NCBI RefSeq assembly: GCF_014854695.1
Contig: NZ_CP027557.1
Location: 4,464,001-4,528,000 of the forward strand
Length of the DNA: 64,000 nucleotides
Reading direction: 5' to 3'
Source of the DNA: Rhodococcus rhodochrous
GTDB lineage: Bacteria; Actinomycetota; Actinomycetes; Mycobacteriales; Mycobacteriaceae
Of the stretch, positions 1-64,000 are shown piece by piece (within the stretch, counting starts at the first letter, position 1; each line of letters begins with the position of its first letter). The notes beneath the pieces are model-generated. The model worked only from the letters and a program-made list of their open reading frames with translations. It was not told the origin of the DNA and searched no databases. Both the position numbers and the translations under genes were made by a program.

Positions 1-38068
<38,068 letters not shown>

Positions 38069-42815: not shown

Positions 42816-44240
42816 TCAGGGAAGCCGGATCTGCGGCAGCGGGGGCAGCTCGATCGTCGGCAGCGGCGGCAGCGTCGGGACCGGCACCCCCAAACCCGGG
42901 ATGGTCGGAACCGGAGCGGGTGGAGGTTCGGGGGCCGGGGGGACCGGGCGCGGCGAATAGGTCGTCGGAGCCGGCTCCGGCTCGACCGTGGTGGTAGTCG
43001 TGGTGACCTGCGTAGGCGCCACCGCCGGCGCGGGGTTCTGCCGCGGCGCACCGGTCGTCGGGGGGGTGTACGACTGGGTGGGGCTCGTCTCGTCGGTCGA
43101 CGAACTCGTGAAGCCGGTGCTCAGCGCCACCCCGATGACCGCGACGACCGCGAGGGCCGTGCCCGCGATACCGGCGCCGGAGATCTGTTTACCGCTGACC
43201 GACGGGCCGCGACCGGCCAACGTCGACCACCACGGCTTCTTCGCGTCGGCGGACTCCGGACCGGACGCGGCGGCTGCGGTCGTCTGCGCGGGGGCCGCAG
43301 CGGCGACGACCGGGATCTGTTCGGTCTCGGCACTGGTCGACGAGGGACGGCCCGGCACGATGCGGGTGAGGGCGCTCACGGGCTGCGAGGTGGCCGGTTT
43401 CGCGGCGGCCATCGCCCCGCCCTTGGCGAGCACGAGTTCGGGCTCGTGCGGCACCACCAGCGGCAGTCCGAGCCATGAGCGCAGCACCTCCTGCACGAGC
43501 GGGATGTGCGCACCGCCGCCGAGCAGGACCACGGCCTCGGGGTTGCGACCGGCACGGGAGATCACCTGGTGCACGAACTGCGCCGACGACTCGACGCACT
43601 GCGCGATGAGCGGGTCGAAGGTCTCGCGTGACATGAGCACGACTCCCGCCGCGCCCGGCACGGCCACGGTCTCGCTCTGCGAGAGCTTCTCCTTGGCCTC
43701 GCGGCACTGGGCCGACAGTTCGTCGTCGGTGGCGGGGTCGTCGGGGCGCCACACACCGTTGGTGTCGAGCTGGTGGTCGCGGATCACGTTGTCGAAGACG
43801 CGGCCGCCGATGCTGTCGGTGCGTTCGGCGAGCACCTCGCGGGAGACGAGGTCGACGACGGTGACGGTGAGCCCGGCGTCGCCGAGGTCGTAGAAGACGG
43901 CGGTGTTGCTCCCGAGTTCGCCCGTGGCCTGCAGATAGGTGACGGCGGCCTCGGGTTCGGAGACGAGCAGGTAGCGGTCGATGTGTTCGACGGTCATCGC
44001 CGCACGCAGGCGTTCGGCCTGTGCCTGGTCGCGGTAGACCAGTCCGACCCGCTCGACCGGATCGCCCGCGACACCGGTCTGGAAGAGCACCCCGAGGGTG
44101 CCTGCCGCCAACCGCGCCGGATCGTCCTTACCGGTTTCGACCACCTGGAACTGGAACCCCGCCGTCGGGGTCGTTCGATCCACGGGCCGCACCACCCGAA
44201 CGGCGCTCTCCCCCACGGTCACACCGAGAACAGAACTCAT
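42816..44240 (-). CDS. Hsp70/actin-like ATPase-domain protein with membrane anchor and Pro-rich tail
   Basis: This 474-residue protein has a shortened Hsp70-type nucleotide-binding fold. The N-terminal phosphate-1-like segment is LGVTVGESAVRV (5-16), phosphate-2 is FYDLGDAGLTVTVVD (116-130), and the adenosine motif is LLGGGAHIPLV (239-249). There is no substrate-binding domain. Instead an Ala-rich linker leads to one membrane helix (about 356-377) and a 95-residue Pro/Thr-rich tail, presumably outside the membrane. Similar Hsp70-like proteins occur in mycolate-containing actinobacteria, mostly without known function. ATG 44240 is preceded by AAGGCGG. It is divergent from the tyrosine phosphatase, sharing a 181-nt region that contains a palindrome. 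Envelope signalling or a scaffold role is possible but unproven. Classical chaperone activity is unlikely. Confidence 0.85.
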   Translation of the reverse strand: MSSVLGVTVGESAVRVVRPVDRTTPTAGFQFQVVETGKDDPARLAAGTLGVLFQTGVAGDPVERVGLVYRDQAQAERLRAAMTVEHIDRYLLVSEPEAAVTYLQATGELGSNTAVFYDLGDAGLTVTVVDLVSREVLAERTDSIGGRVFDNVIRDHQLDTNGVWRPDDPATDDELSAQCREAKEKLSQSETVAVPGAAGVVLMSRETFDPLIAQCVESSAQFVHQVISRAGRNPEAVVLLGGGAHIPLVQEVLRSWLGLPLVVPHEPELVLAKGGAMAAAKPATSQPVSALTRIVPGRPSSTSAETEQIPVVAAAAPAQTTAAAASGPESADAKKPWWSTLAGRGPSVSGKQISGAGIAGTALAVVAVIGVALSTGFTSSSTDETSPTQSYTPPTTGAPRQNPAPAVAPTQVTTTTTTVEPEPAPTTYSPRPVPPAPEPPPAPVPTIPGLGVPVPTLPPLPTIELPPLPQIRLP

Positions 44241-44317
44241 CAGCCGCCTTCGACGTTGGATGCGCCAGCCGCGTCAGCTTCCCCCGGCGCCCGAAATCAC
44301 CGACGATGGTACAGAAC

Positions 44318-44333
44318 GTTACCGATCGGTCAC
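44318..44333. promoter_or_regulatory. Palindrome GTTACCGATCGGTCAC between divergent genes
   Basis: This 16-bp inverted repeat has a perfect ACCGATCGGT core and one mismatched outer pair. It sits midway in the 181-nt divergent region between the Hsp70-like gene and the tyrosine phosphatase. It could be an operator shared by both promoters. I do not recognise the cognate regulator. Confidence 0.35.
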
Positions 44334-44421
44334 GAGGGCCGTTCGGATGACGTACACCGGGACCGAGCACTCCACAGATGTCTCCTGAGCGTCCGGGAGG
44401 CGTCTCCCATAGGATCGCCGA

Positions 44422-44937
44422 ATGCGGATTCTCTATGTGTGTACCGGAAACATCTGCCGATCACCCACCGCAGAAAGGCTGACCACCGCCTACGCGGCCG
44501 AGGCCGGTCGCGACGACCTCTCGGCGCACAGCGCTGGCACCCGGGCGATGGTCGGCTACGGCATGGAACCCACCGCAGCACTGGTGTTGCAGCAGCTCGG
44601 AGGCGATCCGGACGGATTCGCCGCGCGTCGGATCACCCCGCAGATCGCGGAGGACTCCGACATGATCATCACGATGAGCGAGCGGCACCGCGCCAAGGTC
44701 GTCCAGCTCGCACCGCGCAGGATGCGCGTGACGTTCACGCTGCGCGAGGCCGCCAGGCTGCAGAACGCCACCGGTGCGCGGACCGTCGCAGAACTGACGA
44801 CGGCCCGGGCGCAGATGTCTGCGCCCGGGCCGGAGGACATCGTCGACCCGATCGGCCGTGACGAGGAGACGTTCGTCACGGTCGGGTCCGAGATCGCCGA
44901 TCTGTTGCTACCTCTCCTCGCCGCTCTCCGAGCCTGA
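44422..44937 (+). CDS. Low-molecular-weight protein-tyrosine phosphatase (Wzb/PtpA-like)
   Basis: This 171-residue cytoplasmic phosphatase begins MRILYVCTGNICRS, giving the P-loop CX5R with nucleophile Cys7 and Arg13. The general-acid Asp is in DPIG (142-145). Length and motifs are normal. ATG 44422 has an AGGA element about 10 nt upstream. Its natural partner is probably the adjacent BY-kinase, which carries a C-terminal tyrosine cluster. Kinase and phosphatase pairs of this type control capsule and exopolysaccharide chain length in many bacteria. The last 30 nt overlap the 3' end of the kinase gene on the opposite strand. It shares a divergent control region with the Hsp70-like gene. Confidence 0.95.
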   Translation: MRILYVCTGNICRSPTAERLTTAYAAEAGRDDLSAHSAGTRAMVGYGMEPTAALVLQQLGGDPDGFAARRITPQIAEDSDMIITMSERHRAKVVQLAPRRMRVTFTLREAARLQNATGARTVAELTTARAQMSAPGPEDIVDPIGRDEETFVTVGSEIADLLLPLLAALRA

Positions 44938-46662
44938 GTCGTTCACCGGGCGCCGCGGTGCGTGCACCACGGGCCGCGACAGCGGCTCGGCGGCGGAATA
45001 CGCCTGCGGCGCCCGGTAGGGCTCGCTGCCGTACCGCTCCGATGCCGGCTGCGGTGCCGGCGGGAACTGCTCCGCAGCGCGGTAGTGGTAGGCGTCGTTG
45101 CTCGGCGCCGGATAGGCCTGCGTGGCCGGCGGCTCGACGTGCCGGTGACCGTTCTGCGGCCGGGCCGGTCCCTCGACGGGTGCCTGCGCCTGCGGAGCCT
45201 GTGCCTGCGGAGCCGGCTGGGCGGCCGGTGCAGTCGGTGCCGGCGCTCCGACACGCTGTGTCGCCGGCGTGCTCGTCTGGGCGGCAGCCGGCGTGGCAGC
45301 GTCCTTGTCGGAGCTGTAGTAGTAGCGGTACTCGTAGGCCGTGCCGCGTCCCTTGGTTGGGGTCAGCGCCAGGATCGTGCCGAGCACGGGCGCGTTGACC
45401 GCACGCAGGTTGCCGACGGCCCGCGCGAACTGCTCGCGGGTGGTCTTGCCGTAGCGCGCGATGAGCAGCGCACCGTCGGCGATGTTCGTGAGGATCGTCG
45501 CGTCGGTGACGGGCAGCAGCGGCGGCGCGTCGATGATGACGTAGTCGAAGCGCGACCGCAGGTCCTCGATGACCTCCCGCGCATGCGCGGAACCGAGCAG
45601 CTCGGACGGGTTGGGCGGCAGACCACCGGCGGCGAGCACCCACATGCCGTCGAAGCGGGTGGGCTGGAGCACGTCCTCGAGCGCGGCCGTGTGAGCGAGC
45701 ACGTTCGACAGGCCGGCGTCGCCGAGCGTGTCGAGGTACTTCGTCACACGCGGGCGGCGCAGATCGGCTTCGACGAGCACCACGGAATGGCCGGCCTCGG
45801 CAAGCACCAGAGCCAGGTTGACGGCCGTGGTGGTCTTGCCCTCACTGGGCAGCGAGCTGGTGACGACGATCGCGCGCGGCGGGTTGTCGACCTCGAGGAA
45901 CTGTAGGTTGGTCCGCATCTCGCGGTAGGCCTCGGCGTCGCCGCTGTTGGCTTCTCCGAACACGATCGCCGGGTCCTCGTGCCGTGCCTTCTCAAAAGGA
46001 ATCACACCCACCACACCGGTGCCGGCGAGATCCTCGACGGCGTTGCGGTCCTTGATGGTGTTGTCGAGGCGGTCACGCAGCACCGCGAGGGCGAGGCCAA
46101 GGAGCACACCGATGGCCAGACCCAGCGCGACGTTCTGCGTGGTCTTCGGCGTCACCGGCGACGACGGCGTGGCCGCGTACTGCTCGACCACCACGCGAGC
46201 GGTGGGCAGGCCACCGTTCTCGGGGGTCTCCAGTTCGCGGGCCATGACGACGAATTCGTCGGACAGCGCGTTGGCGAGGTCGCGGGCGCGCTCGGGCGAC
46301 TCGTCGGTGACGGCGGTGTCGATGAGCACCGTGTCGGGAGTCGACGAGGCCGTGACCTTGCCGGCGAGATCGACGGCCGACAGGTCGCTCAGCCCGAGCT
46401 TGTCGAGGGTGCGCTGCGCAAGGGTGGTGCCCTCGAGCAGTTCGGTGTAGGAAGTGACTCGCTGCTGGGAGAACAGGTTGCCCTGATAGATCTCCTGCAC
46501 CGACGCGCCCGACGAGGTCGACACGAACAGGCGTGTCTTGGCTTCGTACTGCGGCGTGGTCAGCAGGGAGGCGCCGAGAGCGGCAAGCACCGCCACCACC
46601 GTCGTGACGGCGACGATCTTCCACCTCGCCTGCAGAATTCGCAGGTAATCATGTACTTCCAT
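44908..46662 (-). CDS. Wzc-like polysaccharide co-polymerase and BY-kinase
   Basis: This is a 584-residue fusion of a Wzz-type chain-length domain and a bacterial tyrosine kinase. Membrane helices at about 15-34 and 178-196 flank an extracytoplasmic loop. The cytoplasmic ATPase shows Walker A (SSLPSEGKTT, 269-278), Walker A' (VVLVEAD, 294-300) and Walker B (VIIDAP, 375-380). A tyrosine cluster YEYRYYY (443-449) and scattered tyrosines in a Pro/Ala/Gln-rich tail are likely autophosphorylation sites. It should regulate polymerisation and export of a surface polysaccharide. I chose ATG 46662 because GAGGGAG (46671-46677) lies 8 nt upstream and the start overlaps the NRPS2 stop as TGATG. An upstream in-frame ATG at 46701 would add 13 residues without family support. 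The NRPS neighbour is unusual for this family. Confidence 0.94.
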   Translation of the reverse strand: MEVHDYLRILQARWKIVAVTTVVAVLAALGASLLTTPQYEAKTRLFVSTSSGASVQEIYQGNLFSQQRVTSYTELLEGTTLAQRTLDKLGLSDLSAVDLAGKVTASSTPDTVLIDTAVTDESPERARDLANALSDEFVVMARELETPENGGLPTARVVVEQYAATPSSPVTPKTTQNVALGLAIGVLLGLALAVLRDRLDNTIKDRNAVEDLAGTGVVGVIPFEKARHEDPAIVFGEANSGDAEAYREMRTNLQFLEVDNPPRAIVVTSSLPSEGKTTTAVNLALVLAEAGHSVVLVEADLRRPRVTKYLDTLGDAGLSNVLAHTAALEDVLQPTRFDGMWVLAAGGLPPNPSELLGSAHAREVIEDLRSRFDYVIIDAPPLLPVTDATILTNIADGALLIARYGKTTREQFARAVGNLRAVNAPVLGTILALTPTKGRGTAYEYRYYYSSDKDAATPAAAQTSTPATQRVGAPAPTAPAAQPAPQAQAPQAQAPVEGPARPQNGHRHVEPPATQAYPAPSNDAYHYRAAEQFPPAPQPASERYGSEPYRAPQAYSAAEPLSRPVVHAPRRPVNDSGSESGEER

Positions 46663-46677
46663 CAGGGCGTCTCCCTC
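46660..46677 (-). promoter_or_regulatory. Translational-coupling junction NRPS2 / BY-kinase (TGATG)
   Basis: The NRPS2 stop TGA (46664-46662) and kinase start ATG (46662-46660) share one base. The Shine-Dalgarno GAGGGAG (46671-46677) sits inside the NRPS2 coding end, 8 nt from the ATG. This supports coupled translation on one mRNA. Confidence 0.85.
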
Positions 46678-47419
46678 GTTGCGGTAACACTGCGTGCGCA
46701 CCCGGCGGGCGCGGTGTGGGGGTCGTCGTGGCGCTCGAGCACGCTGTCGAGCACCGGGCCGATCGCACGCACCGCGTCCGGATCGGCCAGTTCCGAGTGC
46801 GTGAACGGCACCGGATGTTCGACGACGAGACCGCGCACATACCGCTGCCAGGTGGCGGCGATATCTGGGTGCCGGTCGAGATCGGGTGCGGCGACCACCA
46901 GGTCGATGTCGCCGTCGTATTCGCCGAGGGTGTGCCGGCGCACCGCATCTTCGACGGCCTGTGCAGCGGCGTCGGTGCGGCGCCGGACTTCGGCGACGAG
47001 TTCTTCGGGCAACCCGGCGATGTCGGGTACGTTCTCTGCCGTCGGGTGGGGTTCGGCAGGCACAGTCTCGGGCGTGAGCGTGTCGAGCAGCACTACCGCA
47101 CCGACCTGCTCTCCGTGCTCGCGTAGTTGCACGGCCATCTCGTGTGCGATGGTGCCGCCCACCGACCAGCCCAGCAGGTGGTAGGGACCATCGGCCCTCA
47201 CCTTACGGATTTCGGCCACATACCGCGCGGCGAGTTCGCCGATACTCTCCGGAATGTCGTCGAAGCCCGTTGCCTGCAGACCGTAGAGGGTGCGGCCGTC
47301 GAGATGCTGCGCGAACCCGGCGTACATCCATGCGAGCCCGCTGATGGGGTGCACGCAGAACAGCGGCGGTTTCTCGTCACCGCGACCGGCGATCTCGACG
47401 AGGCTGCCGAGCGGGTCGC
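46662..47419 (-). other. NRPS2 C-terminal thioesterase domain
   Basis: This type I thioesterase begins near [13 protein letters not shown]. The nucleophile Ser is in GWSVGG (near 47160), and a candidate catalytic His is in VPFTHSEL (near 46800). It should release the finished peptide by hydrolysis or macrocyclisation. Confidence 0.9.
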
Positions 47420-50400
47420 GCTCATTGTCGCTGCGGCCGTGTTCGATGCGGTCGGCGAGCGACGCGAGATCCGGGCTGGTGAACAGCCACTCGATGGGAA
47501 CGTCGGCGCCGAGCGCGTCGCGCAGTTCGCCGGCGACGGTGACGGCGGCGATGGAACTGCCACCGAGATCGAAGAAGCCGCGGTCGGCGGAGATCTCGTC
47601 GACCGGCAGGTCGAGGTGGCGGGCGAACACCGCGGCGACGGCCTGCGCGATGCGTCCCTGCGGCGCCACATACGGTTCGTCGACGGCGGCGTCGGGGGCG
47701 GGCAGCGCCGCGCGGTCGACCTTGCCGGACGCCATCAGCGGCAGCGCGTCGACGACGGTGATGCTCACCGGCCGCAGGTGACGCGGCAGGTCGGCGACGA
47801 GCGCGCGACGCAGCGCGGACACGTCGGGTGCGGTGCCGGTCTCGGGCTGGATATAGGAGACGAGAACGGTGTCGCCGTCGCGTCCGGGATGCGGGACGGT
47901 CACGGCCGCCGCGACTCCCGGACGGTTCAGCAACGCGGCGTCGACCTCGGCGGGTTCGATGCGGATGCCGTGGATCTTCACCTGGTCGTCGATGCGGGAC
48001 ACGTAGTCCAGTACCCCGTCCGGCAGGATCCGAACCAGATCGCCCGTGCGGTACAGCCGCGACCCGCCGTCGTCGAACGGATTCGCGACGAATCGGGTTG
48101 CGGTGAGTCCAGATTCGTAGCGGTAGCCGCGGACGGTGCTGTCGCCGGTCACGTAGAGCTCGCCGACGGTGCCGCGTGACACGGGGTGCAGGCGCGAATC
48201 GAGCACGTAGGCGGTTGCTCCCGCGACCGGTGTGCCGATGCTCGGCTTCTCGTCGCTGGTGAGCGGGACGGAATACGAGACGGCGACGGTGAATTCGGTG
48301 GGTCCGTAGCCGTTGACGATCCGGTGCCGCGACCAGCGGCCCACCAGCGCACCGGGCAGGGTCTCACCCGCAGCGACGATCGTCGTCGGCCCGAGCGCCT
48401 CGGGGTCGAGGGTGCCGAGCACGGTGGGTGTGAGGTTGAGGTGCGTGACGCGCTCGTCGACGATCAGCTCCTGCAGGGGTTCCCCGGCGAAGGTGTGGTC
48501 GGGGGCGATCACGAGGGCACCGCCGTGTGCGTGGGCGGAGAGCAGTTCGAAGATCGCGGCGTCGAAGGTGTGCGAGGCGACCTGCAGTACGCGCGATTCC
48601 GGGCCGAGATCGAGCAGGCCGGTCTGCACGTCGAGCAGCGCCGCGAGTCCGCGGTGGGTGACGTCGACGCCCTTCGGGGTGCCCGTGGTGCCGGACGTGT
48701 AGATCGTGTAGGCGAGGTCGTCGGATGTCACTGCGGGACGTGGGGGTTCGACGGCGTCGAAGTCGATGCTGCGGTCGGCGGTGAGGTCGAGCCACGTCAC
48801 GTGGCCGAGTTCGCGGTAGCCGACGGTCAGGCCGATGCGGGCGCCGGAGTCGGCGAGGATCGCGGCGCTGCGCGCGTCGGGCTGGGTGAGGTCGACGGAC
48901 ACCCATGCCGCACCGAGTTTCGTGATCGCCCAGACGGCGAGCGGCCAGTACTCGCTGCGCGGCACGGCGATCGCGACGAGGTCGCCGCGTCGCACGCCGT
49001 GGGAGGCGAGCACGGAGGCGATCTCGTCGGCGCGGGCGTCGAGTCCGCCGTACGTCCACGCGACGGTGCCGGAGCGCACCGCGATGCGTCCGCGATGCTG
49101 CTCGACGGAAGTCTCCAGGATCTCGAGCAGCGTGCGCGGTGCGACGGCCGGAGCCGACAGCGGCGCGGGCACCGGCACGGCGAGATCACCGACGGCGCGG
49201 TCGGGTTCGGCGAGCGCCGCGGCGAGCATCGCGACGAGGTCGGTGAGCATCGCGTCGCCGGTGGTGTCGTCGAACAGATCCGTCGCATAGACGAGGCGCA
49301 GGTCGAGTCCGGCCTCACGCTCGACGAGTTCGACGACCACGTCGAACTGCGCGGCCGGTTCCCCGGCGTCGGTCTCGGCGATCTGCACGTCCGGCAGTTG
49401 CGGCAGCACCTCGCCGGCCTCGACGCGGTGCGTGAGCAGCACCTGGAAGAGCGGGCTGTACGACGGGTCGCGCCGCGGTGCCAGGCGGGCGACGACCTCG
49501 TCGAACGGCACGTCGGCGTGCGCGAGCGCGCCGAGGTCGGTGGCCCGCACGTCGCGCAGCAGGTCGGTGAACGGCCGCGACGGGTCGACGGCGGTGCGCA
49601 GCACGACGGTGCCGACGAACATGCCGACGAGCCGGTCGAGGCGCGCATCGGTGCGACCCGCGATCGCGGTGCCGACGGCGATGTCGGTGCGTCCGCTGCG
49701 ACGCGCGAGCATCGCGGCGAGCACCGCGTGGACGAGCATGAACACGGTGACGTCGTGGCTGCGCGCAACGTCCCGGAGGCGACGGTGGGTCTCGGCGTCG
49801 AGCTTGGAGACGATCTGCGCGCCACGGTGGGTCGGCTGCGCGGGGCGCGGCCGGTCGGCGGGCAGTGGCAGCGGGCTGTCGGGCAGGCCGGCGAGTGTGG
49901 TTGCCCAGTAGTCGAGTTGGCGGGCAGCGAGCGAACTCGGATCCATGGTGTCGCCGAGCAGTTCGTGCTGCCAGCGCGCGTAGTCGCCGTAGGTGACGGG
50001 CAGCGACTCGAAGACCGGTGCCTCTCCCCCGCGACGCGTGGCGTAGGCGACGGCGAGATCGGTGAGCAGCGGACCGACGGACGCACCGTCGAACGCGATG
50101 TGGTGCACGGCGGCAGCGAGCACCCAGCGGCCGGGTTCGACGTCGAACAACCGGACCCGCATCGGGGCCTGCGTCGTGATGTCGAAGGGCATGGTGATCG
50201 TGGCGGTCACGGCCGCGGCGACGTCCTCCGGCGCGGAGTGTTCGAGCACCGGCGGGTCGACGGGCACCTGCACGTCGTCGGTGAAGGCGGTGCGCAGCAC
50301 GCGGTGGCGGTCGACGACGTCGCTCACTGCGGCGGTGAGGGCGTCGACGTCGAGGTCGCCGCTCAGCGTGAGCACGACCGGCACGAGATATCCGGCGGTG

Positions 50401-53400
50401 CCGGTCTCGGCGCGCGCGACGATGCCGAGGCGACGTTGCGCGGGGGCGATCGGTGCCGGGGTGTCGTCGTCGTAGTGCCGCAGCGCGACGCGCTGGTCGT
50501 CACCGGATTCGATCCGGGCGGCGAGCGCGGCCAGGGTCGGCGCGGCGAGCACCTCGCGCACCGGCACGTCGGTGCCGAACGCCTCGCTCAGTCGCGCAGC
50601 GAAGACGACGGCCGACAGCGAGTCGCCGCCGGCGGTGAAGAACCCGCGGTGCGCGGCGGGGCGGGCGCCGAGCACGTCCTCGGCGACGGTGACGACGAGA
50701 TCCTCGGCGTCGGTGAGCGGCCGGTCGAGGGCTGCGTCGTCGTCGAGTGCGGCGGCGTCGTGCAGTTCGAGCGCGGCGACGTCGAGCTTGCCGTTGGCCG
50801 TGAGCGGCAGCTGGTCGAGCGCGTGCACACGGGTCGGCATGCGGTGCGGCGGCACGACGAGCGCGACTCGCGCAGTGATGTCGTCGGCCGACAGATCCGG
50901 TCCGGCCGCGAACGCGACGAGCGTGCCACTCACCGCGACCACCGCGGCCTGCCGTATGCCGGGCTGGGCCAGCAGCGTCGCTTCGAGTTCGCCGGGTTCG
51001 ATGCGCACGCCGCGCACCTTGAGCTGGCGGTCGGTGCGGCCGAGATAGCCGAGGGTGTCGTCGACGCGGCGGTGGACGCGATCACCCGTGCGGTACATGC
51101 GTGCACCGCCGGGGGCGGCGACGAAGCGTTCGGCGGTGCGGGCCGGATCGTCGAGATATCCGGCGGCGAGGCCCTCACCCGCGAGGTACAGCTCGCCGAC
51201 GGCTCCGGCCGGCACGGGACGCAGGCGCGCGTCGAGCACATGAGCGACGGTGCCGGGCACGGGCTTGCCGATGCTCGGGCGGGTGCCGGGTTCGATGTCG
51301 ACGAGGGTCGCGACGATCGTGGCCTCGGTCGGCCCGTACGCGTCGAGCATCACGCGGCCGTCGGCCCAGCGCGCCGCGAGCGACGGCGACAGGGATTCGC
51401 CACCCGAGGCGACGACCTTCAGGTCGGGCAGTCCCTCGGGATCGAGGGTGCCGAGCACCGTGGGGGTCGACAGGTAGTGGGTGATGCGCTGTTCGGCGAG
51501 GTAGCGGTGCAGGTCCTGCCCGGCGTAGACGTCCGGGGGTGCGACGACGAGCGTCGCGCCGGTGGTGTGCGCGAGCAGCAGTTCGAGCAGTGCCGCGTCG
51601 AACTCGGGTGAATAGCCGTGCAGCACGCGGTCTCCGGGCTCGACCCGGTAACGCTCGGCCACTTCGGCGGCGAGCGGGGCGAGTCCGCGGTGCGTCACCG
51701 CGACCCGCTTCGGGGTGCCGGTGGACCCGGAGGTGGACACGACGTAGGCGGTGCCGGGCAGGCATGTCTCCCCCGCCTGCCGAGAATGTGTAAAGGCCGC
51801 ACCGGTCTTGGTGATGGCCCACAAGGTGCGGATGTAGTCGACACTGCGCGGCGCGTCGATGCGCACGATCCGGCCGTCCCGCGCGCCGTCGGCCCGCAGT
51901 TCGTCGGCGAGGGCGTCGGACTGCTCGTCGAGTTCGCGGTAGGTGAGCGATTCGCCGTCGCCGCGCAGGGCCTCGCGGTCGGGATGCGCGGCGGCGGTGG
52001 CGCGCAGCATCTCGGCGAGGGTGCGAGTCGGGGCCGGTTCGCCACCGTCGAGGGCAGCGGCCGGGGTGTCGACCGTCAGTCCGCCGACAACACTGTCGGG
52101 TGCGCTCGCCAGGGTGCCGAGCAGCGCGACGAACCGGGTGACGAGCAGTTCGGCGGTGCGGCCGGCGAAGCGGGCGGCGTCGAACACGAGCGTGCCGGTG
52201 TAGCCGTCGGGGCGCGGGGCGAGCGTGAACTGCAGGTCGAACTTCGGTGTGTCGTCGAGGACTTCGCGGGCCTCGACGGTGAGCTCCCCGAGGCTGATCG
52301 GGTCGATGCCGAAGTCCTGCAGCGCCAGCGCGACCTGCGGTGCGCCGCTCTGCCGCTCCGACAGCAGCTGCTCGTAGGGCACGGCGACGTGGTCGAAGGC
52401 GGCGACGTCGAAGTCGCGGACCTGGCCGAGCAGTCCGGCGAACGACATGTCCGGAGCCACGCGGGCGCGCAGCACGAGGGTGTCGAGGAACGGACCGACG
52501 AGGTCTTCGAGCTGCGCCCAGCGGCGTCCGCCAACCACAGCGGCGACGGCGATGTCGTCGCTGCCGCCGAGTCGTGCGAGCAGCACCGACAGCGCGGCGT
52601 GCAGCACCATGAACTCGGTGGCGCCGTGTGCGCGGGCGAGTTCGGCGAGCGCGTCGCGCACATCGGCGGGCACCGTGAAGTCCACGCTGCGCGCACCGGT
52701 GTCGGTTCCGGTGGCGTCGGCGGGCAGTTCGGTGACGGCCAGTCCGTCGAGGGCGCGCCGCCAGTGTTCGAGGTCGCGCTCGGGGATGCCGCGTTCGGCT
52801 TCCCACAGGGCGTAGTCGGCGTACTGCAGGGGCAGCGGTTCCCACTGCGGTGCCGTGCCGTTCACGCGGGCGAGGTAGGCGATGGTGAGGTCGCGCAGCA
52901 GCGGCCGCAGCGACGTGCCGTCGGCGATCGAGTGGTCGACGTCGAGGTGCAGCACGTGCTGGTCGGGGCCGGTGCGTTCGAGTCGCACGCGCCACCGGTC
53001 GCTGCGCGGCGCCTCGTGGATCTCCTGGTACACCCCGTCGCCGTCGACGAGGTAGTCGGTGCGCAGGATCTCGTGGCGCAGCGCGATGTCGCCGAGCGCG
53101 GCCTGCAGTGCTCCGAGGTCGAGCGGTCCGCTCAGGTTGACCTCGCTGCGCAACCGGTACGCATCGGGGGCAATCGAACTCAGACCCCACAGGCGGCGCT
53201 GGGCGCGGCTGAGCGGGATCCGTGCCGGTCGCGGCGACACGGCGACGGGGCCGGCGCCGGTGTCGAAACCACCGGCGTCGAGGGCGGCGGCGAGCGCGTC
53301 GACGGTGGGGTTCGCGAAGACGGTGCGCAGCGGCACCTCGGTGCCGGTCTCGTCGCGCAGGCGCCCGACGAGGACGGTGGCGAGCAGCGAGTTGCCGCCG

Positions 53401-56400
53401 ACGGCGAAGAAGTCGTCGGTGCGTCCCACCGCGGTGCCGTCGCCGAGGACGTCGCCGATGATGCGGGCGACGAGCGCTTCGGTCTCGGTGCGCGGTTCGC
53501 TGCCTTCGCCGGCGGCGGGTTCGGGCAGGGCGGCGGCGTCGACCTTGCCGTGGGAGGTGAGCGGGATCGCGGCCAGCGGCACGATCGCGGTGGGCACGAG
53601 GTGCGCGGGCAGGACGGTGCGCAGCTGGGCTCGCAGGTCTGCGTCGTCCAAATTACTGCCGTCGAGGTTCTCGCCGGTGACATAGGAGATGAGGCGGCCG
53701 CTGCGCACGAGGGTCACGGCGCGGTCGACGCCGTCGAGTGCGGCGAGGGCGGTGTCGATCTCGCCGGGCTCGATGCGCACACCGCGCAGCTTGATCTGGT
53801 TGTCGCTGCGGCCGACGAATTCGAGGGCACCGGCGCGGGTCCAGCGCACGAGGTCGCCGGTACGGTAGCGGCGGCCGTCGGGTCCGGCGACGAACCGCGA
53901 GGCGGTTCGCGCAGCGGCGCCGCGATAGCCCGAGGCCAGTCGCGGTCCCGAGACGTACAGTTCGCCGACCACACCGGCGGGCACGGGACGCAGCCGCTCG
54001 TCGAGAACCTCGACGGTGACGCCGCGGACGGGAGTGCCGATGACGATGTCGTCGCCCGGTCGCAGGGGCTGCGAGTTGGTGACGAACATCGTGGCCTCGG
54101 CCGGGCCGTAGCTGTTGACGAGAGTGCGCCCGTCTCCCCAACGATCGACGATCTCGCGGGTGAGCCGGTCGCCGCCGAGCACGAGCGTGCGCAGGGCCGG
54201 CAGGTCGCGCACCGGCACGGTCGCGAGCGTCGACGGCGTCATCACCGCGTGCGTGATCGCGGCGCTGTCGAGCAGGTCGCCGAGGGCAGCGCCACCGTAG
54301 CTGTCGGCGTCGGCCACCACGAGCGTCGCGCCGGAGATGCCGGCGGTGAGCATCTCGAGCATCGCGGCGTCGAACGACGGTGCCGCGACGTGCAGGACCC
54401 GATCGCCCGGGAAGGCAGCGAGGTATTCGCCGATGTCCTCGGCGAACGCGCTCGCGGCGCGCTGGGTGACGGTGACGGCCTTGGGGTGTCCGGTGGTGCC
54501 GGAGGTGAAGACGAAGTAGGCGGGGGCGTCGGGTGCGGGATCGACGACGTCGGCAAGCGGTTCCTCGTCGTCGGAAGTCACCTCGAGCCACCGCACGGTC
54601 GCCGGAAGTGTCGGCGCTTCACCGACTCCCACACGCACGTCGGCGAGCATCTCGGCCAGGCGCGCGGTGGGGGCGGTGGGGTCGACGAGCATCGGTGCGG
54701 CGCCGGCGCCGATGATGCCCCACACGGCGAGCACCGATTCGAGCGAGCGGGGGTAGGCACACGCGACCGGATCGCCCGGGCGCACCCCGGCGAGCTGGAG
54801 GCGCGCGGCGAGAGCGTCGGAATAGTAGAGCAGTTCGGGATACGACAGTTCGCGGTCGTCGTCGACGATCGCGAGTTCCTCGCCGCCGGCAGCCGCGCCC
54901 TGCGCGAGCCACTGGCGCAGCGACCGGGGTGCGCCCGGCACAGCGCCGACGGTGGGCAGGTCGGCGTCGTCGTGCAGGGCGATCTCCCCGACCCGCACAT
55001 CCGGATCCGCGACGGCCGCGCTCAGGATCGTGCGCAGGCGCTCGGCATAGGCGGCGACGGTGTCGGCGTCGTACAGGTCTGTGCTGTAGAAGAATTCGAG
55101 GTCGATGCCGTCCTGCTGTTCGGTGACGGTGACCTGCACGTCGACGTTGACCGTTTCGGTGTCGATGGGCGCGGCGGTGACGTTGAGGCCGGGCAGCGCG
55201 AAGGTCGATGCGACGGGTCGTGCCTGCGACAACGCGATCTGGAACAGCGGGTGCCGCGCTTCGCTGCGGGCGGGCTGCAGCTTCTCGACGAGCGTCTCGA
55301 ACGGTGCGTCCGGGTTGCTGTAGGCGGCGAGGTCGCGGCGGTGCACCTGCGTGAGCAGGTCGGTGAAGGTGGCGTCGGGGTCGACGTCGGTGCGCAGCAC
55401 GAGGGTGCCGGCGAACATGCCGACGACGTCGTCGAGCTGCGGGTCGCCGCGACCGGAGACGGCGGTGCCGATGGGGATGTCGCGACCGGCACCGTGCCGC
55501 GCGAGCAGGGCCGCGAGGGCGGCGTGCAGCACCATGAACACCGTCGCGCGACCCTCACGGGCCAGCGTGTGCAGTCCGCGGACGAGGTCGGCGTCGAGCG
55601 AGACGGTATGGGCGGCGCCGTGTCCGGTGGGCTGTGCGGGTCGCGGTCGGTCACCGGGGAGGGTCACCTCGTCGGGCAGGTCGGCGAGTTCGCTCAGCCA
55701 GTACGGGATCTGCTCGTCGGCGACGCTGCGCTGCCACCGCGCGTAGTCCGTGTACTGGACGGGCAGTTCCGGCAGCTCGGGGGTCGCGCCGGTGAGGCGG
55801 GCGTCGTAGGCGACGGCGATGTCGCGCAGCAGCGGCGTGAGCGACCAGCCGTCGGCGGCGATGTGGTGCAGGACGACGAGCAGCACGTGCCGGTCGGGTG
55901 CCGTCCGGTACAGCCGCATGCGGGCCGGGGGTTCGACGGTGAGATCGAAGCCGGCGGTGGCGTAGTCGCGGACGAACTCGTCGAGGGCGTCTTCGGGCAC
56001 GGCCACCGGGTCGAGATCGGGGCGCGCGGCAGGCAGCGCGGTGTACTCGTCGGCGGCGGGGTAGACGGTGCGCAGGGTGCGGTGCCGTTCGAGCACATCG
56101 GTCACGGCGGCGGCGAGGGCGTCGACGTCGAGGTTCCCGTCGAGCCGCACCGCGAAGGGCAGGTTGTAGCTCGGGGACGCCGGGTCGAAGCGGTTGATGA
56201 ACCACAGGCGCTGCTGCGCCGCCGACAGCGGAGCGGGTGCGTCCGGATCGGCGACGAGAGGTGTACGGCGCGAGCGAGTCTCACCGTTCTCGTCCACGAA
56301 GGCGGCGAGCGCTGCGACGGTGCGATTCTCGAACACGTCGCGCACGGTGACGTCGGTGTCGAGCACGTCCGAGAGGCGACCGGCGAGGCGCGTGGCGAGC

Positions 56401-59400
56401 AGCGAGTTGCCGCCGAGGTGGAAGAAGTCGTCGTCGGCGCCGAGGGTGCCGGGGGCGATGCCGAGCAGTTCGGCGCACACGTCCGCGACGAGTTCCTCGA
56501 CCGGTCCGTGCGGTGCCGCTCCCCCACCGGCGGTGACGTCGGGGGTGGGCAACGCGGCGCGGTCGAGTTTGCCGTTGGCGGTGAGCGGCAGCGCGTCGAG
56601 GACCACGGTGGCCGACGGCACGAGGTAGTCGGGCAGGCTGCGGCGCAGGTCGCGCAGGGCGGCGGTGGCGTCGCCGCCGACGAGATAGGCGACGAGCCGG
56701 TCGTCGCGCAGCAGCACGACGGCCTGACGCACACCTTCGCTGCGCAGCAGGGCGGCTTCGATCTCGCCGGGCTCGATGCGGTAGCCGCGCAGTTCGATCT
56801 GCTGGTCGGCGCGACCGAGATAGTGCAGCGCACCGCTGGTGTCGCGGCGGCCGAGATCGCCGGTGCGGTAGCGGCGGGCGCCACCGGGAGCGGCGACGAA
56901 ACGCGTCGCGGTCTGGCCGGGGCGTCCGCGGTAGCCGCGCGCGAGTTGTTCTCCGCGCACATACAGTTCGCCGATCGCGCCGGGCAGTGCGGGTCGCAGC
57001 GAGGAGTCGAGCACGTCCACGGCGAGACCGGGCAGCGGTGCACCGATGCCGGTCGCGGTGGCGTCGCCGAAGGTGACGTGCACGGTGGTCTCGGTGATGC
57101 CGAACATGTTGACCGCCCGCACATGCGGATGATGTTCGACCCACGGGCGCACCCGCGCGGGGTCGAGGGCTTCGCCGCCGAAGATCAGCAGCCGCAGGTC
57201 CTCGAGCGGTGCGTGATCGGTGGCGGCGAGCTGGTAGAAGGCCGTGGGGGTCTGGTTGAGCACCGTCACCCGGTTGCTGGTGAGCACGTCCACGAAGGCG
57301 GCCGGGTCGCGCACGGTGAGGTGGTCGACCACCACGACAGAAGCGCCGGTGGCGAGCGGTGCCCACATCTCCCACACGGAGAAGTCGAAGGCCGGCGAGT
57401 GGAACAGCGTCCACACGTCGTCGGCGCGTAGCCCGAACTCGTCGACGGTCGCTGCGAGCAGCGACAGCACGTTGCGGTGCGTCACCTGCACGCCCTTGGG
57501 GGTTCCGGTGGAGCCGGAGGTGTAGACGATGTAGGCGCCGAGATCCGCGACGAGCGGGAAGTCGAAGAGTGCGCCGTCGTCGAGGCGGCCGGCGACCTCC
57601 GGGGCGTCGAGTCGCACCGCAGGAACCCGGATGTCGGTGAGGTCGCTGTCGGTGACGACCAGCGAGGGCTGTGCGTCGTCGAACAGTGCCTGCAGGCGCG
57701 TGGCGGGATGCGTGACGTCGACGGGCAGGTAGATGCCGCCGGCGCGGGAGACGGCGAGGATCGCGACGACGAGGTCGGGGGTGCGCGGCAGTGCGACGGC
57801 GACGACGTCCTCGGCGGTGACGCCGCGTTCGCGGAGGAGTTTGGCGAGCGCGCCCGAGCGCGACCACAGCGCGCCGTAGCTGAGGGAGTACCCGTCCCCC
57901 ACCACGGCGACGGCCGCAGGATCGTCGGCCACGCGCTGCGCGACCAGCTCGGGCAGCGACTCTGCCGGTAGTTGTTGTGCGACGCCGACGGGGGTGAGGT
58001 CGGCGTCGCACAACTCGATACCGCCGACCGGCACAGCCGGGTCGGCGGTAACGGAGTCGAGGATACGCACGAACCACGACTGCCACTGCACAATCGTGTG
58101 CGAATCCAAAAGTTCGTCCGCGTACGTAAGGATCGTCTCCAAACCGGCCGGCACACCGGTCTCGGAACGACGTTCGCGGACGGTCAGCTCGAGGTCGACG
58201 CGCGCGGTGCCCACCGGGATCTCGCGGATGGTCGTGGAGCTGCCGGGCAGCGTGAACTCGTCGAGCGAGAACGACTCGTACGCCAGGATGACCTGGAACA
58301 ACGGGTGGTGGGCATCGGTGCCGGCCCCCACGGCGTCGACGATCCGATCGAACGGCACGTCGGCGTGAGCGAAGGCGTCGAGGTCGGCGCGACGGGTATC
58401 GGCGAGCAGGTCGGCGAAGGTGCGGCGCGGATGCACCCGCAATCGCAGCGGCACGGTGCCGACGAACATGCCCACCACATCGTCGACCGCGGCGTCGCTG
58501 CGGCCGGAGACCGGCGTGCCGATGGTGACGTCGTCGGTGGCGGCGAGCGCCGACAGCAGCGTCGCGAGCGCCGCGTGCATCACCATGAACGGCGTGACGT
58601 CGTGGGCGCGGGCGAGTTTGTCGATCGCGGCGTGCAGTTCGGCGGGGATCGCGAAGCTCGCGCGACCCGCGGTACCTGTGGTCGCCGCGGTGCGGGGACG
58701 GTCGGTGGGCAACGCAAGCAGCGGCGACGCGTCGTCGAAGGTCTGCTTCCAGTAGGCGAGCTGCCGGGCCGCGAGGCTGTCGGGGTCGTTCTCGTCGCCG
58801 AGCACGGCGCGGTGCCAGCGCGCGTAGTCGCGGTAGGTGACCGCCGGGGCCGGCAGGTCCGGCGTCTCCCCGTCGCGGTGGGCGCGGTAGGCGGCGACGG
58901 CGTCGCGGCCGAGCGGCAGCAGCGACAGGCCGTCGGCGGCGATGTGGTCGATCACCACAGCGAGGACATATCCGGAGTCCGTCCGGCACAGCCGGGTGCG
59001 GATGGGCGGATCGACGGTGAGATCGAAACGCGCGCGGGCGAATTCGGTCAGCTCCCCGCCGAGGTCGGTGCCGGCGTCGACGGGCTCGAAGTCGAGCGTC
59101 ACCGACGGCAGCACGTGCTGGCGCGGGCCCGACGGGCTGTCGGGGAAGACCGTGCGCAGCGAGTCGTGGCGGGCCAGCACGGTGGCGGCGGCCGCGCGCA
59201 CGGCGTCGAGATCGGTGTCGGCGTCGAGGTCGAGCGCGAAGGCGATGTGGTCGCCGCCGTCGATGCCGTCGGCCACGTCGAACCGATTGAGCAGCCACAT
59301 GCGCTGCTGCGCCGGTGCGAGCGGCGCGTCGCTGTCGTCATCGACGTGCACGAGCGGCAGATGCTCGCCGGTGGGTTCCTCGACGAGCAGGTTCGCGAGT

Positions 59401-62400
59401 TCGGCGACGGTGGGGTGCTCGAAGATGTCGCGCACACCCACCCGGCGACCCGCGACTCCCCGCAGACGCGCGGCGAGCTGGGTCGCGAGCAGCGAGTTGC
59501 CGCCGACGGCGAAGAAGTCGTCGGATCCGGCGACGCTCGGCAGGTCGAGCAGGTCGGCGACGACACCGGCGACGAGTTCTTCGGTGGCGCTGCGATATCC
59601 GTCAGTGCGGGTCGCGGTGACCTCCGGCTCGGGCAGCGCGGCGCGGTCGATCTTGCCGGTGCTGGTGAGCGGGAACGCGTCGAGCACGGTGACGGTCGCG
59701 GGCACCATGTGCCGGGGCAGACGCTCGGCGGCCCATTCGCGGATCTCGTGCGGGTCGAGGCGGCCGTTGCGGCTGTGCACGTAGGTGGCGAGGGTGTCGC
59801 CGCGCACGACGGTCACGGCGGTGCCGATGCCCGGGTGGGTCTGCAGGGTCGCGTCGATCTCTCCGAGTTCGATGCGGAAGCCACGGATCTTGACCTGGTG
59901 GTCGCTGCGGCCGACGAATTCGAGGGCACGGTCGTCGTCATGTCCCGTCCAGCGCACGAGGTCGCCTGTGCGGTAGAGACGTCCGGTGCCGAACGGGTTG
60001 GCGACGAATCGGTCGGCGGTGAGTGCGGGTGCGTCGAGGTATCCGCGGGCGACGCCTTGTCCCCCGAGATACAGCTCGCCGGTCACCCCCTCGGGCACGG
60101 GCCGCAGGCGTTCGCTCAGCACCACCGCGGTGACGCCGACGAGGCCGGTGCCGATGGTGAGCCGGTCGCCGGGTGCGAAGGGTTCGCTCGACGTGGCGAG
60201 CACCGTCGTCTCGGTGGGGCCGTAGACATTGAGCAGGGTGCGTCCGGGTGCCCAGCGTTCGGCGGTCTCGACCGGCCATGCCTCGCCGCCGATCGCGATG
60301 GTGCGCAGGGCGCCGAGTCCGGTGGGGTCGAGTTGGGTGGGTACCGAGGGCGTCGAGAACCAGTGGGTGATGCCTTCGGTGCGAAGCAGTTCCACGAGCT
60401 CGTCGCCACCGAACAGGTCGGCGGGCGCGACCACCAGCGTGCCGCCGGAGGTGAGCGCCAGGACGTATTCGAGCACCGCGCCGTCGAAGGCGGGGGTGGC
60501 GAAGTGCAGCACCCGTGCGTCGGTTGCGGTGTCCGAGATGGTGGGCAGGTCGAAGCGTTCGACGAACGACTGGGCGAGCGGGCCGAGTCCGCGGTGCGAG
60601 ACCACCACGCCCTTGGGCCGGCCGGTGGAGCCGGAGGTGTAGACGACGTAGGCGGTGTTGTCGAGGTGCAGCGGCCGCACACGATCGGCGTCGGCGATCG
60701 GGCGGGTGTCGCCCTCGACGGTGAAGGCAATCGGCTCGACGCCGTCGGGCAGCGCGACGTCGCCGTCGACGATCGCGTACCGCGCACCGGATGCGCCGAG
60801 CAGCTGGGCGATGCGCGCAGCGGGCTGGCTGGGGTCGACAGGCACGAAGGCCGCGCCGCTCAGCGCGACTGCCGCGGCGGCGAGCACCGAACGCGTCGAC
60901 CGCGAGAGCACGACGGCCACACGGTCTTCCGTGCCGATGCCACGCTCGATCAGCGTCCACGCGAGCGGGCGTGCCGCGGTGCGGATCTCGGCGGCCTGTC
61001 CACCGGGTTCGGCGACGCAGGCCGGCGATCGGTCGATGATCTCGGCGAAGGTCGCCTCCGGGCCGGGCTCGGCCGGTTCGACGGAGAGGGTGCCGAGGTC
61101 GAGGTCGCCGACGGGCAGCGACGGATGCTGCGCGACCTGCTCGAGCACTCCGCTCAGGCGGGTCACCCAGCGGGCGATGGTGTCGTCGTCGAACAGCTTC
61201 GTGTCGTAGACGAGACGGCCGGTGAGCGATCCGTCGCGCAGTTCGCGCAGCGAGATCTCGAGGTCGAATCGTGCCTGCGACGAGGCGATCTCCTGCGGCC
61301 GCACGGTGAGGCCGGGCAGTTCGAGATCGGGCACGTCCACGTTGTCGTAGGCGAGCATCACGTGGAAGGGCGAGAAGCCGAGGGCGTCGACGACGTAGTC
61401 GAACGGCACGGTGGCGTGCGCGAAGGCGTCGAGGTCGGTGTCGCGGGCCTGCGCGAGCAGCGACGTGAACGGCTGTGCCGGGTCGACATTCGTTCGCAGG
61501 GTGACGGTGCCGACGAACATGCCGACGAGCGCGTCGAGGTCGGGGTGGTCGCGACCGGCCGTTCCGGTGCCGATGGCGATGTCGTGCCCGGAGGTCCAGG
61601 CGGCGAGCCACACGGCGACGGCGGCGTGCACGGCCATGAAAGTGGTGGCGTCGTGCGCGGCGGCGACGGACCGCAGTGCCGCGACCTGCTCGGCCGGCAC
61701 CGTGAAGTCCACGGCCGCGGCGGGACCGAAGCCACCATTGCGAGGACGGTCGGTGGGCAGCGGCGCGGCGTCGGCGAGACCGTCGAGTGTGCGTGTCCAG
61801 TAGTCGATCTCGCGACCGGCGCGAGTGTCGGGCGCTGTCGGATCGCCGAGGCGATCGAGGTGCCACTGCGCGTAGTGCCGGTAGTGCAGCGGCAGCGGCG
61901 TCCACGCGGGCGCCTCCCCGGTCGTGCGGGCGAGGTAGGCGGTGGCGACGTCGGCGGTGAGCGGCACGAACGACGCACCGTCGAGCGCGATGTGGTGGGC
62001 GACGACGGCGAGCACGTGCTTGTCGTCGGCGAGTCGCAGCAGGCGGATCCGGAACGGGATCTGCGCGGTGAGGTCGAACGGTTCGGCCGCCCACTCGGTG
62101 ATGAGCGCTTCGACGTCGCCCTCGGTGGTTTCCGGTTCGAGCGCGAGACCGGCGACGGCGCGCTCGAGCGGCAGCACGTCCTGCACCGGGCCGTCGAGCT
62201 CTAGGCGGAACAGCGTGCGGAGGGTTTCGTGCCGGTCGAGGACGTCCACCACCGCGGCCTGCAGAGCCGGCAGGTCGAGGGCGCCGTCGAGGTGCAACGC
62301 GAACGGCAGATGGTAGGCGGCCGGGTCGCCGTGCGCGCGGGCGAGCAGGAACAGTCGGCGCTGCGCGGGAGCGAGCGGCGACGGTCCGATGTCGGGAGTG

Positions 62401-64000
62401 GCGACAGGTCGCGATTCCGATTCGGGTCGTTTCGCCGCGGCGGCCGCAAGGCTGGCGACGGTCGGGTGGGCGAACACGTCGCGCAGCTGCACGTCGCGGC
62501 CCAGTGCGGCCCCGAGACGGGCGGCGAGCTGCGCGGCGCCGAGTGAGTGGCCGCCGAGCGCGAAGAAGTCGTCGTCGGCTCCGATGTCGTCGATGCCGGT
62601 GAGTTCGGCGAACAGCTCCGCGACGATCTTCTCGGTTGGGCCGTTGGGCGGTCGTGATCCGACGGCCACGGCACGCTCGGGTGCGGGCAGCGCGCGCCGG
62701 TCGACCTTGCCGCCCGGCGTAAGGGGCAGCGCCTCGAGCACGGTGATCGACGACGGACGCAGATAGGTGGGCAGTTCGTCGGCGAGACGGACAGTGAGGT
62801 CGGCGGGGTCGACGTCGCCCACGACGTAGGCGGCGATGTGCTCGCCGTGGACGGTGACGGTCGCGGCCTGCACCTCGTCGAAGGAGACGAGCGCGGCTTC
62901 GATCTCACCGAGTTCGATGCGGTAGCCGCGGATCTTCACCTGCTGGTCAGCGCGGCCGAGGAATTCGAGGTGACCGTCGGTGGTCCAGCGGGCGCGGTCG
63001 CCCGTGCGGTACATGCGCCCACCGAACGGTGAGGCGACGAAGCGTTCGGCGGTGAGGGCCGGTGCGCCGAGGTAGCCGCGCGCGACGCCCGGTCCCCCGA
63101 GATACAGCTCGCCGATCACGCCGGCGGGCACGGGATGCAGACGGACGTCGAGGACGACGGCGGTCATGCCGTCGATCGGCCGGCCGATCGGCACGCCCGC
63201 GCCGGGTTGCAGCGGATCGCTGAGGGTCGCGAGGATCGTGGTCTCGGTGGGCCCGTAGGCGTTGAGCATCGTGCGGCCGGTGGACCAGCGATCGGCCACG
63301 GCCTGCGGCAGTGCTTCGCCCCCGGCGTCGAGAACCTGCAGGTCGGGCAGGCCGTCGTCGGGGGTGACGGCGAGGATCGCCGGTGCGGTGATCGCGTGGG
63401 TGACGGCTTCGCTGCGCAGCAGGGTTGCCAGCGCCGGTCCGCCGACGGCGTCGGGCGGGCAGATCACCAGGGTTGCGGCGGCGTCGAAGGCGAGGAGCAG
63501 CTCCTGCAGCGACGCGTCAAAGGACGGCGACGCGAGGTGCAGCACCCGCGACGTCTCATCGGCGCGGTAGCAATCGCGCAGCGTCGACACGAGCGCCGAC
63601 ACACCGCCGTGCCCCACCGCGACGGCCTTCGGGGTGCCGGTGGAACCGGAGGTGTGGACGACCCACGCCGTGTTGTCGACGTGCAGCGGCCGCAGGCGAT
63701 GCTCGGCGGTGAAGGTCTCAGCGGAGCCGTCGGCAGGCGGCGCGATGCGGGTGACGTGCTCGAGCAATGCCGGGTGGTCATGAGCGACGGCGATCCGCAT
63801 ATCGCGCAGCACCTGCTCGAGGCGACGGGCGGGAAGTTCGGGGTCGAGCGGAGTGTAGGCGGCGCCGGTCTTGGCGACGGCCCACAGCGCGACCACCGAA
63901 TCGATCGAGCGAGGCAGCAGCACCGCGACGCGCTCTTCGGGTCCGGCACCCGCCGCGACCAGCGCATGAGCGAGCGCATCGGAGCGAGCGTCGAGTTCGT
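46662..64000 (-). CDS. NRPS2: multimodular NRPS, terminal part with thioesterase (5' end outside window)
   Basis: 5,778 residues are visible, with the start beyond the right edge. The first visible residues ([17 protein letters not shown]) are the N-terminal part of an A domain. Order: A-T, then five C-A-T modules, then a TE. A domains are centred on A3 motifs near 63640, 60630, 57510, 54500, 51735 and 48680. Specificity residues are D-A-Q-I-D-G-A-I-L, D-G-L-F-A-G-V-V-L, D-F-W-N-I-G-M-V-H (exact Thr), D-A-L-V-V-G-S-M-F, D-A-L-L-A-G-A-I-V and D-A-F-N-V-A-G-V-A. No epimerisation domain is visible. Two C domains have DH in place of HH, and one A domain is internally shortened. The TE has GWSVGG. 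The stop overlaps the start of the BY-kinase gene. It is separated from NRPS1 by other genes in both orientations, so the two need not act in one pathway. Confidence 0.96.
47420..50479 (-). other. NRPS2 module f: C - A - T
   Basis: C has HHIAFDGAS near 50095. A3 is [11 protein letters not shown] near 48680. The code D-A-F-N-V-A-G-V-A is not recognised. The carrier is FFDLGGSSI near 47560, with Ser before the phosphopantetheinylated Ser. Confidence 0.85.
50480..53239 (-). other. NRPS2 module e: C (DH variant) - shortened A - T
   Basis: The C motif is DHSIADG. About 50 residues between core A2 and A3 are missing from the A domain: after AITKTGAAF the sequence goes through [13 protein letters not shown] straight to TAYVV. 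A3 reads [12 protein letters not shown], with Ser for Tyr and Arg for the final Gly. Later motifs (YGPTEAT, YRTGD, NGKLD) are intact. Code D-A-L-L-A-G-A-I-V. The carrier is FFTAGGDSL. Activity of this A domain is doubtful. Confidence 0.84.
53240..56259 (-). other. NRPS2 module d: C - A - T
   Basis: C has HHIAADGWS near 55860. Core A3 is [12 protein letters not shown] and core A5 is YGPAEAT rather than YGPTETT. The code D-A-L-V-V-G-S-M-F is not recognised. The carrier is FFAVGGNSL near 53400. Confidence 0.84.
56260..59349 (-). other. NRPS2 module c: C - A(Thr) - T
   Basis: The C motif is DHIAADG, with Asp replacing the first His. The A code D-F-W-N-I-G-M-V-H exactly matches threonine, with FGITET at A5. 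The carrier is FFHLGGNSL near 56420. Threonine is activated four residues from the C-terminus of the peptide. Confidence 0.87.
59350..62419 (-). other. NRPS2 module b: C - A - T
   Basis: C has HHIALDGAS near 61990. The A domain has a weak N-terminal A1 region, A3 near 60630 and code D-G-L-F-A-G-V-V-L. This is loosely like isoleucine codes (DGFFLGVVY, 7 of 9 positions). The carrier is FFAVGGNSL near 59510. Confidence 0.84.
62420..64000 (-). other. NRPS2 module a (partial): A - T
   Basis: The A domain lacks its N-terminal end. A3 reads [13 protein letters not shown] near 63640. The code D-A-Q-I-D-G-A-I-L is not recognised. The carrier motif is FFALGGHSL near 62560. Confidence 0.85.

Follow-up and report, generated by a model that had tools for sequence, protein, structure and literature searches.

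Why would the gene for a six-module peptide synthetase run straight into the gene for a capsule-type tyrosine kinase? NRPS2 and a Wzc-type BY-kinase are arranged in this way in a 64,000-nucleotide stretch of Rhodococcus rhodochrous DNA (the window, G000:C1:4464001-4528000 of a 6.09 Mb genome). We analyzed the window, read the 80 kb that follow it, and compared the locus with its counterparts in the genus (Rhodococcus sensu stricto; 18 genomes, including R. gordoniae, R. ruber, R. aetherivorans, R. zopfii, R. phenolicus, and R. coprophilus) and in a scan of a genome collection (61 named loci). The answer that we favor, with moderate confidence, is that the window takes in one margin of a Wzx/Wzy-type surface-polysaccharide locus with a conserved lipohexapeptide synthetase built into it, and that peptide and polysaccharide would serve the same envelope layer.

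Overlap of NRPS2 and the kinase gene

Across the junction the minus strand reads ...CGCAACGAGGGAGACGCCCTGATGGAAGTACATGATTACCTG... The stop codon of NRPS2 (TGA, 46664-46662) and the start codon of the kinase (ATG, 46662-46660) share an A, creating a one-nucleotide overlap, TGATG (46660..46664, minus strand). A Shine-Dalgarno-like sequence, GAGGGAG (46671..46677, minus strand), sits eight bases 5' of the kinase ATG within the NRPS2 reading frame, whose codons there encode T-R-E-T-P-stop. The original prediction had NRPS2 ending in TGATG with the kinase start and placed the kinase Shine-Dalgarno inside the NRPS frame; both statements are confirmed.

A lone TGATG overlap is ordinary in compact operons and common in actinobacterial operons. 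The one at this junction is found in all 15 genomes of the genus that retain NRPS2 (one of them, G009, a fragmented draft), as TGATG or, in R. ruber and R. aetherivorans, as TAATG. GAGGGAG is kept in all aligned loci of the genus and is nearly identical even in the remnants left where NRPS2 was lost. Among nine diverse genomes, the last ten codons of NRPS2 share 90% amino-acid identity, compared to 32-66% for the preceding 90 codons; this excess is what one expects if the frame conceals a ribosome-binding site. Conservation in 15 genomes, together with these constrained last codons, rules out a chance overlap.

A conserved overlapping stop and start, with the ribosome-binding site in the upstream frame, is the gene arrangement of translational coupling, and it is present in 15/15 cases. 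Given this arrangement, ribosomes that finish NRPS2 can re-initiate on the kinase, and we infer that NRPS2 is translationally coupled to the kinase in Rhodococcus sensu stricto. A promoter and terminator scan of 44300-47600 found none, a type of scan that is uninformative for actinobacteria. From the overlap alone it does not follow that the 6,270-aa synthetase and the 584-aa membrane kinase are made in equal amounts. Stoichiometric co-expression, which had been read into the junction at first, is both unsupported and unneeded. The kinase survives the loss of NRPS2 in R. coprophilus and Rhodococcus sp. 105337.

Domain architecture of NRPS2 and its predicted product

The window holds the C-terminal 5,778 codons of NRPS2 (46662..63998, minus strand) as one open frame. 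Position 64000, taken earlier as its upper limit, is the edge of the window; the frame runs on for another ~1.5 kb (L033:3-1469, G000:C1 to about 4529468), bringing the total to about 6,270 codons. Pfam finds AMP-binding, Condensation, PP-binding, and Thioesterase domains, and motifs resolve them into six C-A-T modules followed by a thioesterase, (C-A-T)x6-TE. As the original prediction had it, the gene ends in a thioesterase: its last domains are A-T-TE, with the PF00975 stretch at 46944..47369 on the minus strand (hmmscan E 4.7e-29).

The first condensation domain of NRPS2 clusters with the first condensation domains of NRPS1, another synthetase encoded in the window, and of synthetases from other genera (43-60% identity); these first domains form a clade separate from the internal ones, to which they are about 25% identical. 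Its best matches in the PDB are the 7c1k group and the first condensation domains of CDA synthetase I and ObiF1, which we take to be starter domains. Given that the first domain is of the starter type, the product is probably N-acylated, and an N-acylated hexapeptide released by the thioesterase is the most likely product of NRPS2. The adenylation signatures are largely alike across the genus, and module 3 resembles a type whose signature is presumably threonine-specific.

NRPS2 thus shares with the lipopeptide synthetases named above a starter-type N-terminal condensation domain, modular C-A-T organization, and a terminal thioesterase. It differs from them in that we see no dedicated acyl-ligase or exporter beside it and in its location in an EPS locus.

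The kinase and its phosphatase

The kinase (584 aa, 44908..46662, minus strand) is of the Wzc/CapAB type, as judged from Pfam (Wzz and AAA_31), TIGR01007, PDB matches, and alignment. Its N-terminal chain-length-determinant domain matches Wzz (PF02706, E 2e-10), and it scores 166.6 bits against NCBIfam TIGR01007, where the cut-off is 108; among proteins of solved structure, it is related to BceF, CapAB, Wzc, and VpsO. The expected motifs are present: Walker A (SSLPSEGKTTT), Walker A' (VVLVEADLRRP), and Walker B (YVIIDAPP). Directly after the kinase domain comes a tyrosine cluster, YEYRYYY, that is nearly invariant in the genus, with four tyrosines invariant in the alignment; the tail is rich in Pro and Ala.

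Converging on the kinase from the other side is a gene for a low-molecular-weight protein tyrosine phosphatase (171 aa, 44422..44937, plus strand; Pfam LMWPc, E 3.7e-22), and the two reading frames share 30 bp at the kinase 3' end. Its C(X)5R loop (CTGNICRS) and DP loop (IVDPIG) are intact. The enzyme and its convergent orientation had been called correctly from the sequence, and we can add that the closest solved relative is E. coli Wzb (5.7e-17). Beyond the phosphatase, a gene for an Hsp70-like membrane protein with a Pro-rich tail (42816..44240, minus strand; Pfam HSP70 and synteny) is a conserved flank of the kinase-phosphatase pair in the genus and in R. opacus-type loci.

The pair therefore has much in common with the Wzc/CapAB/BceF and Wzb-type systems: the Wzz domain, the P-loop kinase with Walker A, A', and B motifs, the C-terminal tyrosine cluster, an adjoining Wzb-like phosphatase, and nearby EPS genes. 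In contrast to those systems, the kinase start here lies at the very end of an NRPS frame, and the phosphatase is convergent rather than part of the same operon. The kinase also departs from its relatives in the Walker A' motif (residues 294-304), where the first Asp is Glu throughout the genus (VLVE[AG]DLRRP); the Mycolicibacterium orthologues have Asp. By analogy with the Wzc/Wzb-type phosphorylation cycle controlling EPS polymerization (PMC8285477, PMC11986026), the kinase and phosphatase most likely cycle phosphorylation of the tail tyrosines and in this way control polymerization of the EPS.

A polysaccharide locus beyond the edge of the window

The original prediction noted that BY-kinases normally accompany polysaccharide genes, none of which is here. 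This is true only of the window; a capsule/EPS cluster begins beyond 64000. Past NRPS2 lie a divergent DUF4012 gene, GlmS, several transposase-like genes, and then the polysaccharide cluster. The cluster encodes a DegT aminotransferase, glycosyltransferases, a UDP-sugar dehydrogenase, a UDP-GlcNAc 2-epimerase, two Polysacc_synt_2 proteins, a CapF-like protein with epimerase and Polysacc_synt_C domains, a FemAB/GNAT-like protein, and a priming sugar transferase. The priming transferase, glycosyltransferases, and sugar-nucleotide enzymes thus lie near NRPS2 (regions L033/L034/L125), separated from it by IS elements and about 17 kb. The R. rhodochrous genome also has a membrane-rich 930-codon frame without a Pfam match, and Wzx (Polysacc_synt) and Wzy_C proteins are encoded in the EPS cluster of Rhodococcus sp. 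105337 (G012, region L037), a relative that has lost NRPS2. CapE/CapF/CapG-like genes in the R. rhodochrous cluster (L034:12937-16339) suggest a sugar of the N-acetyl-fucosamine type.

The apparent lack of polymerase and export genes, and with it the odd look of the arrangement, probably comes from where the window ends. With an EPS cluster just past that edge, an orphan kinase far from any polysaccharide genes is ruled out.

The DUF4012 gene (PF13196; L033:1505-3493) is divergent from NRPS2. We modeled the structure of a relative (L037:3754-5586) from 29 related sequences (pLDDT 81). In a VIA-align comparison, many LytR-CpsA-Psr structures match the central domain (residues about 228-444) with Z of about 9 to 12 and fill most of the top rows; with Foldseek alone, there were none among the top 50 matches. 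The model suggests that DUF4012 is a relative of glycopolymer ligases in actinobacterial EPS loci, with the limit that a fold in common with LytR-CpsA-Psr proteins is no proof of function. If the fold match holds, the locus would include a protein resembling the ligases that join glycopolymers to the wall.

Retention and loss of NRPS2 within the genus

The kinase is present in 17 of the 18 genomes, 15 with NRPS2 and two without it. The remaining genome, G016, has neither gene and is a 180-contig draft, so we gave it no weight. A search of all 18 genomes with the NRPS2 thioesterase found close relatives only beside the kinase and nowhere else.

The two genomes with the kinase alone are those of R. 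coprophilus (G002) and Rhodococcus sp. 105337, in which the kinase and phosphatase are intact. In R. coprophilus and this sister strain (L013/L014), a decayed thioesterase end of NRPS2 is kept up to the kinase start, and the ribosome-binding site is kept with it. The survival of the kinase after NRPS2 loss suggests that it has a role of its own, and the kinase-only lineages rule out an obligate partnership between the two genes; the kinase would work without the synthetase. R. coprophilus and Rhodococcus sp. 105337 amount to natural NRPS2 knock-outs.

The locus outside the genus

In other lineages the synthetase still precedes the kinase, with a gap between them: 121-122 bp in R. opacus, R. 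jostii, R. koreensis, R. wratislaviensis, and one MAG; 42 bp in R. rhodnii; 36 bp in another MAG; and 55 and 63 bp in two genomes of a further genus. These gaps, with adjacency kept, show that the overlap itself is clade-specific. Conservation of the junction in relatives, which the original prediction had made its test, is accordingly complete in Rhodococcus sensu stricto (15/15) and gives way to gaps of 36-122 bp in outside lineages that keep both genes.

The synthetases themselves vary. In the two genomes of the further genus, whose synthetases equal NRPS2 in overall size (6,269 and 6,352 codons), A1 to A6 match those of NRPS2 one to one. For the R. opacus group, one genome gave the complete NRPS next to the kinase; it consists of four modules, which match A3-A6. 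One genome of yet another genus carries a three-module NRPS (L156:982-10563) 66 bp 5' of the kinase and beside a divergent DUF4012 gene, but one-to-one orthology of its modules with those of NRPS2 is absent. This synthetase in the DUF4012-kinase interval may be a reduced homologue or a separate arrival. Across 276 pairs, thioesterase and kinase distances correlate with r = 0.88. We left out of the comparison a locus of Rhodococcus sp. HNM0569 (L066, around 10001), where the kinase frame is broken: it has no N-terminus and is joined to unrelated sequence, by rearrangement or an assembly fault.

Mycolicibacterium relatives have the DUF4012 gene directly 5' of the kinase and no NRPS. Their loci share with the rhodococcal ones an orthologous kinase (about 51-61% identity), the DUF4012 neighbor, and, in some, sugar transferases; they differ in having no NRPS and in that DUF4012 is co-directional with the kinase and directly upstream of it rather than divergent. 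The ancestral core would thus be DUF4012 beside a Wzc-type BY-kinase, as still found in Mycolicibacterium. In rhodococci, a six-module NRPS lies between a divergent DUF4012 gene and the kinase, and the gene for a Wzb-like phosphatase runs toward the kinase from the opposite flank. Most simply, a DUF4012-kinase EPS locus that was already present would have gained the NRPS in an ancestor of the rhodococci, and the overlap would have arisen in one clade.

Relationship between the peptide and the polysaccharide

The pairing is kept across several genera inside an EPS region, which suggests that two surface products are made in step; production of two envelope products is probably coordinated, with peptide and polysaccharide probably destined for a common envelope or matrix layer. 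The link between a peptide product and envelope polysaccharide proposed at the outset is reasonable, given that NRPS2 resembles lipopeptide synthetases and lies in a genuine EPS locus, whereas the peptide decoration of a glycan proposed with it is unsupported. Against our preferred explanation we count the absence of the overlap outside the genus, the persistence of the kinase without the NRPS, the distance to the EPS genes (about 17 kb and IS elements), and the non-orthologous NRPS of L156. Moreover, conservation of gene order alone can reflect a lack of rearrangement rather than function. A possible, if doubtful, alternative is hitch-hiking: an NRPS landed 5' of an EPS kinase in an ancestor, the kinase now just relies on the NRPS message for its expression, and the peptide is unrelated to the polysaccharide. 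Retention of the kinase and its ribosome-binding site after NRPS2 loss is in keeping with this, as are the Mycolicibacterium kinases, which work without any NRPS, and the frequency of TGATG-type overlaps in actinobacterial operons in general. It is harder to reconcile with an adjacency that survives several genera, module losses, and changing spacing despite IS-rich, variable EPS surroundings, or with the finding that NRPS2 is never away from the kinase in the genus.

Other proposals would tie the two products more closely than the co-production that we favor. We think it unlikely that the lipopeptide is a structural component of the EPS or capsule, an anchor or decoration, with the kinase and phosphatase setting peptide and polysaccharide output together; if true, peptide and polysaccharide would form one envelope system governed from a single control point. 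A product covalently joined to the EPS or anchoring it non-covalently, with the kinase tuning both, seems quite improbable. The location of NRPS2 inside the EPS locus, the predicted N-acylation of its product, the LytR-CpsA-Psr-like central domain of DUF4012 (a fold of glycopolymer-to-wall ligases), and the lipid-rich EPS of Rhodococcus (PMC12298843) argue for such a product; no peptide-glycan transferase was identified, and the terminal thioesterase implies release as a free or cyclized peptide. We give very little credence to the idea of direct control of peptide synthesis by the BY-kinase through phosphorylation of NRPS2 or of a dedicated exporter. Its one point in favor is adjacency, and it has to contend with a tail tyrosine cluster and Wzz domain typical of EPS co-polymerases and with the use of the same kinase in lineages without an NRPS.

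Relation to earlier work

The individual parts of the locus are of known kinds. Our literature search on kinases of this type in connection with Rhodococcus or with NRPSs returned no report of an NRPS-kinase pairing, and a lipopeptide NRPS in an EPS locus that feeds translation into a BY-kinase was not found in the literature searched. According to a 2025 survey (PMC12298843), EPS genes in Rhodococcus show no association with BGCs; the conserved pairing of NRPS2 with an EPS locus runs against this. Ceniceros et al. (PMC5550956) described a conserved orphan NRPS-2 gene cluster family, with no mention of a kinase in the main text; judging by its conservation, their NRPS-2 is possibly our NRPS2. 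With a conserved lipopeptide synthetase in the capsule/EPS locus, an orphan NRPS of rhodococci would gain a specific role that can be tested, and part of the lipid-rich rhodococcal matrix could be explained.

A second synthetase in the window

NRPS1 can be dismissed as the partner of the kinase; the adjacent thioesterase is that of NRPS2, and the thioesterases of the two synthetases are only 38-39% identical. At 14,398 codons, NRPS1 (window 2-38071, minus strand, continuing in L035 to position 14875) is one unbroken frame that begins with a starter-type condensation domain and ends with a thioesterase, placing it among the largest bacterial proteins. Just upstream of it are a fatty-acid desaturase/AlkB-like gene (38146-39336) and a cold-shock gene.
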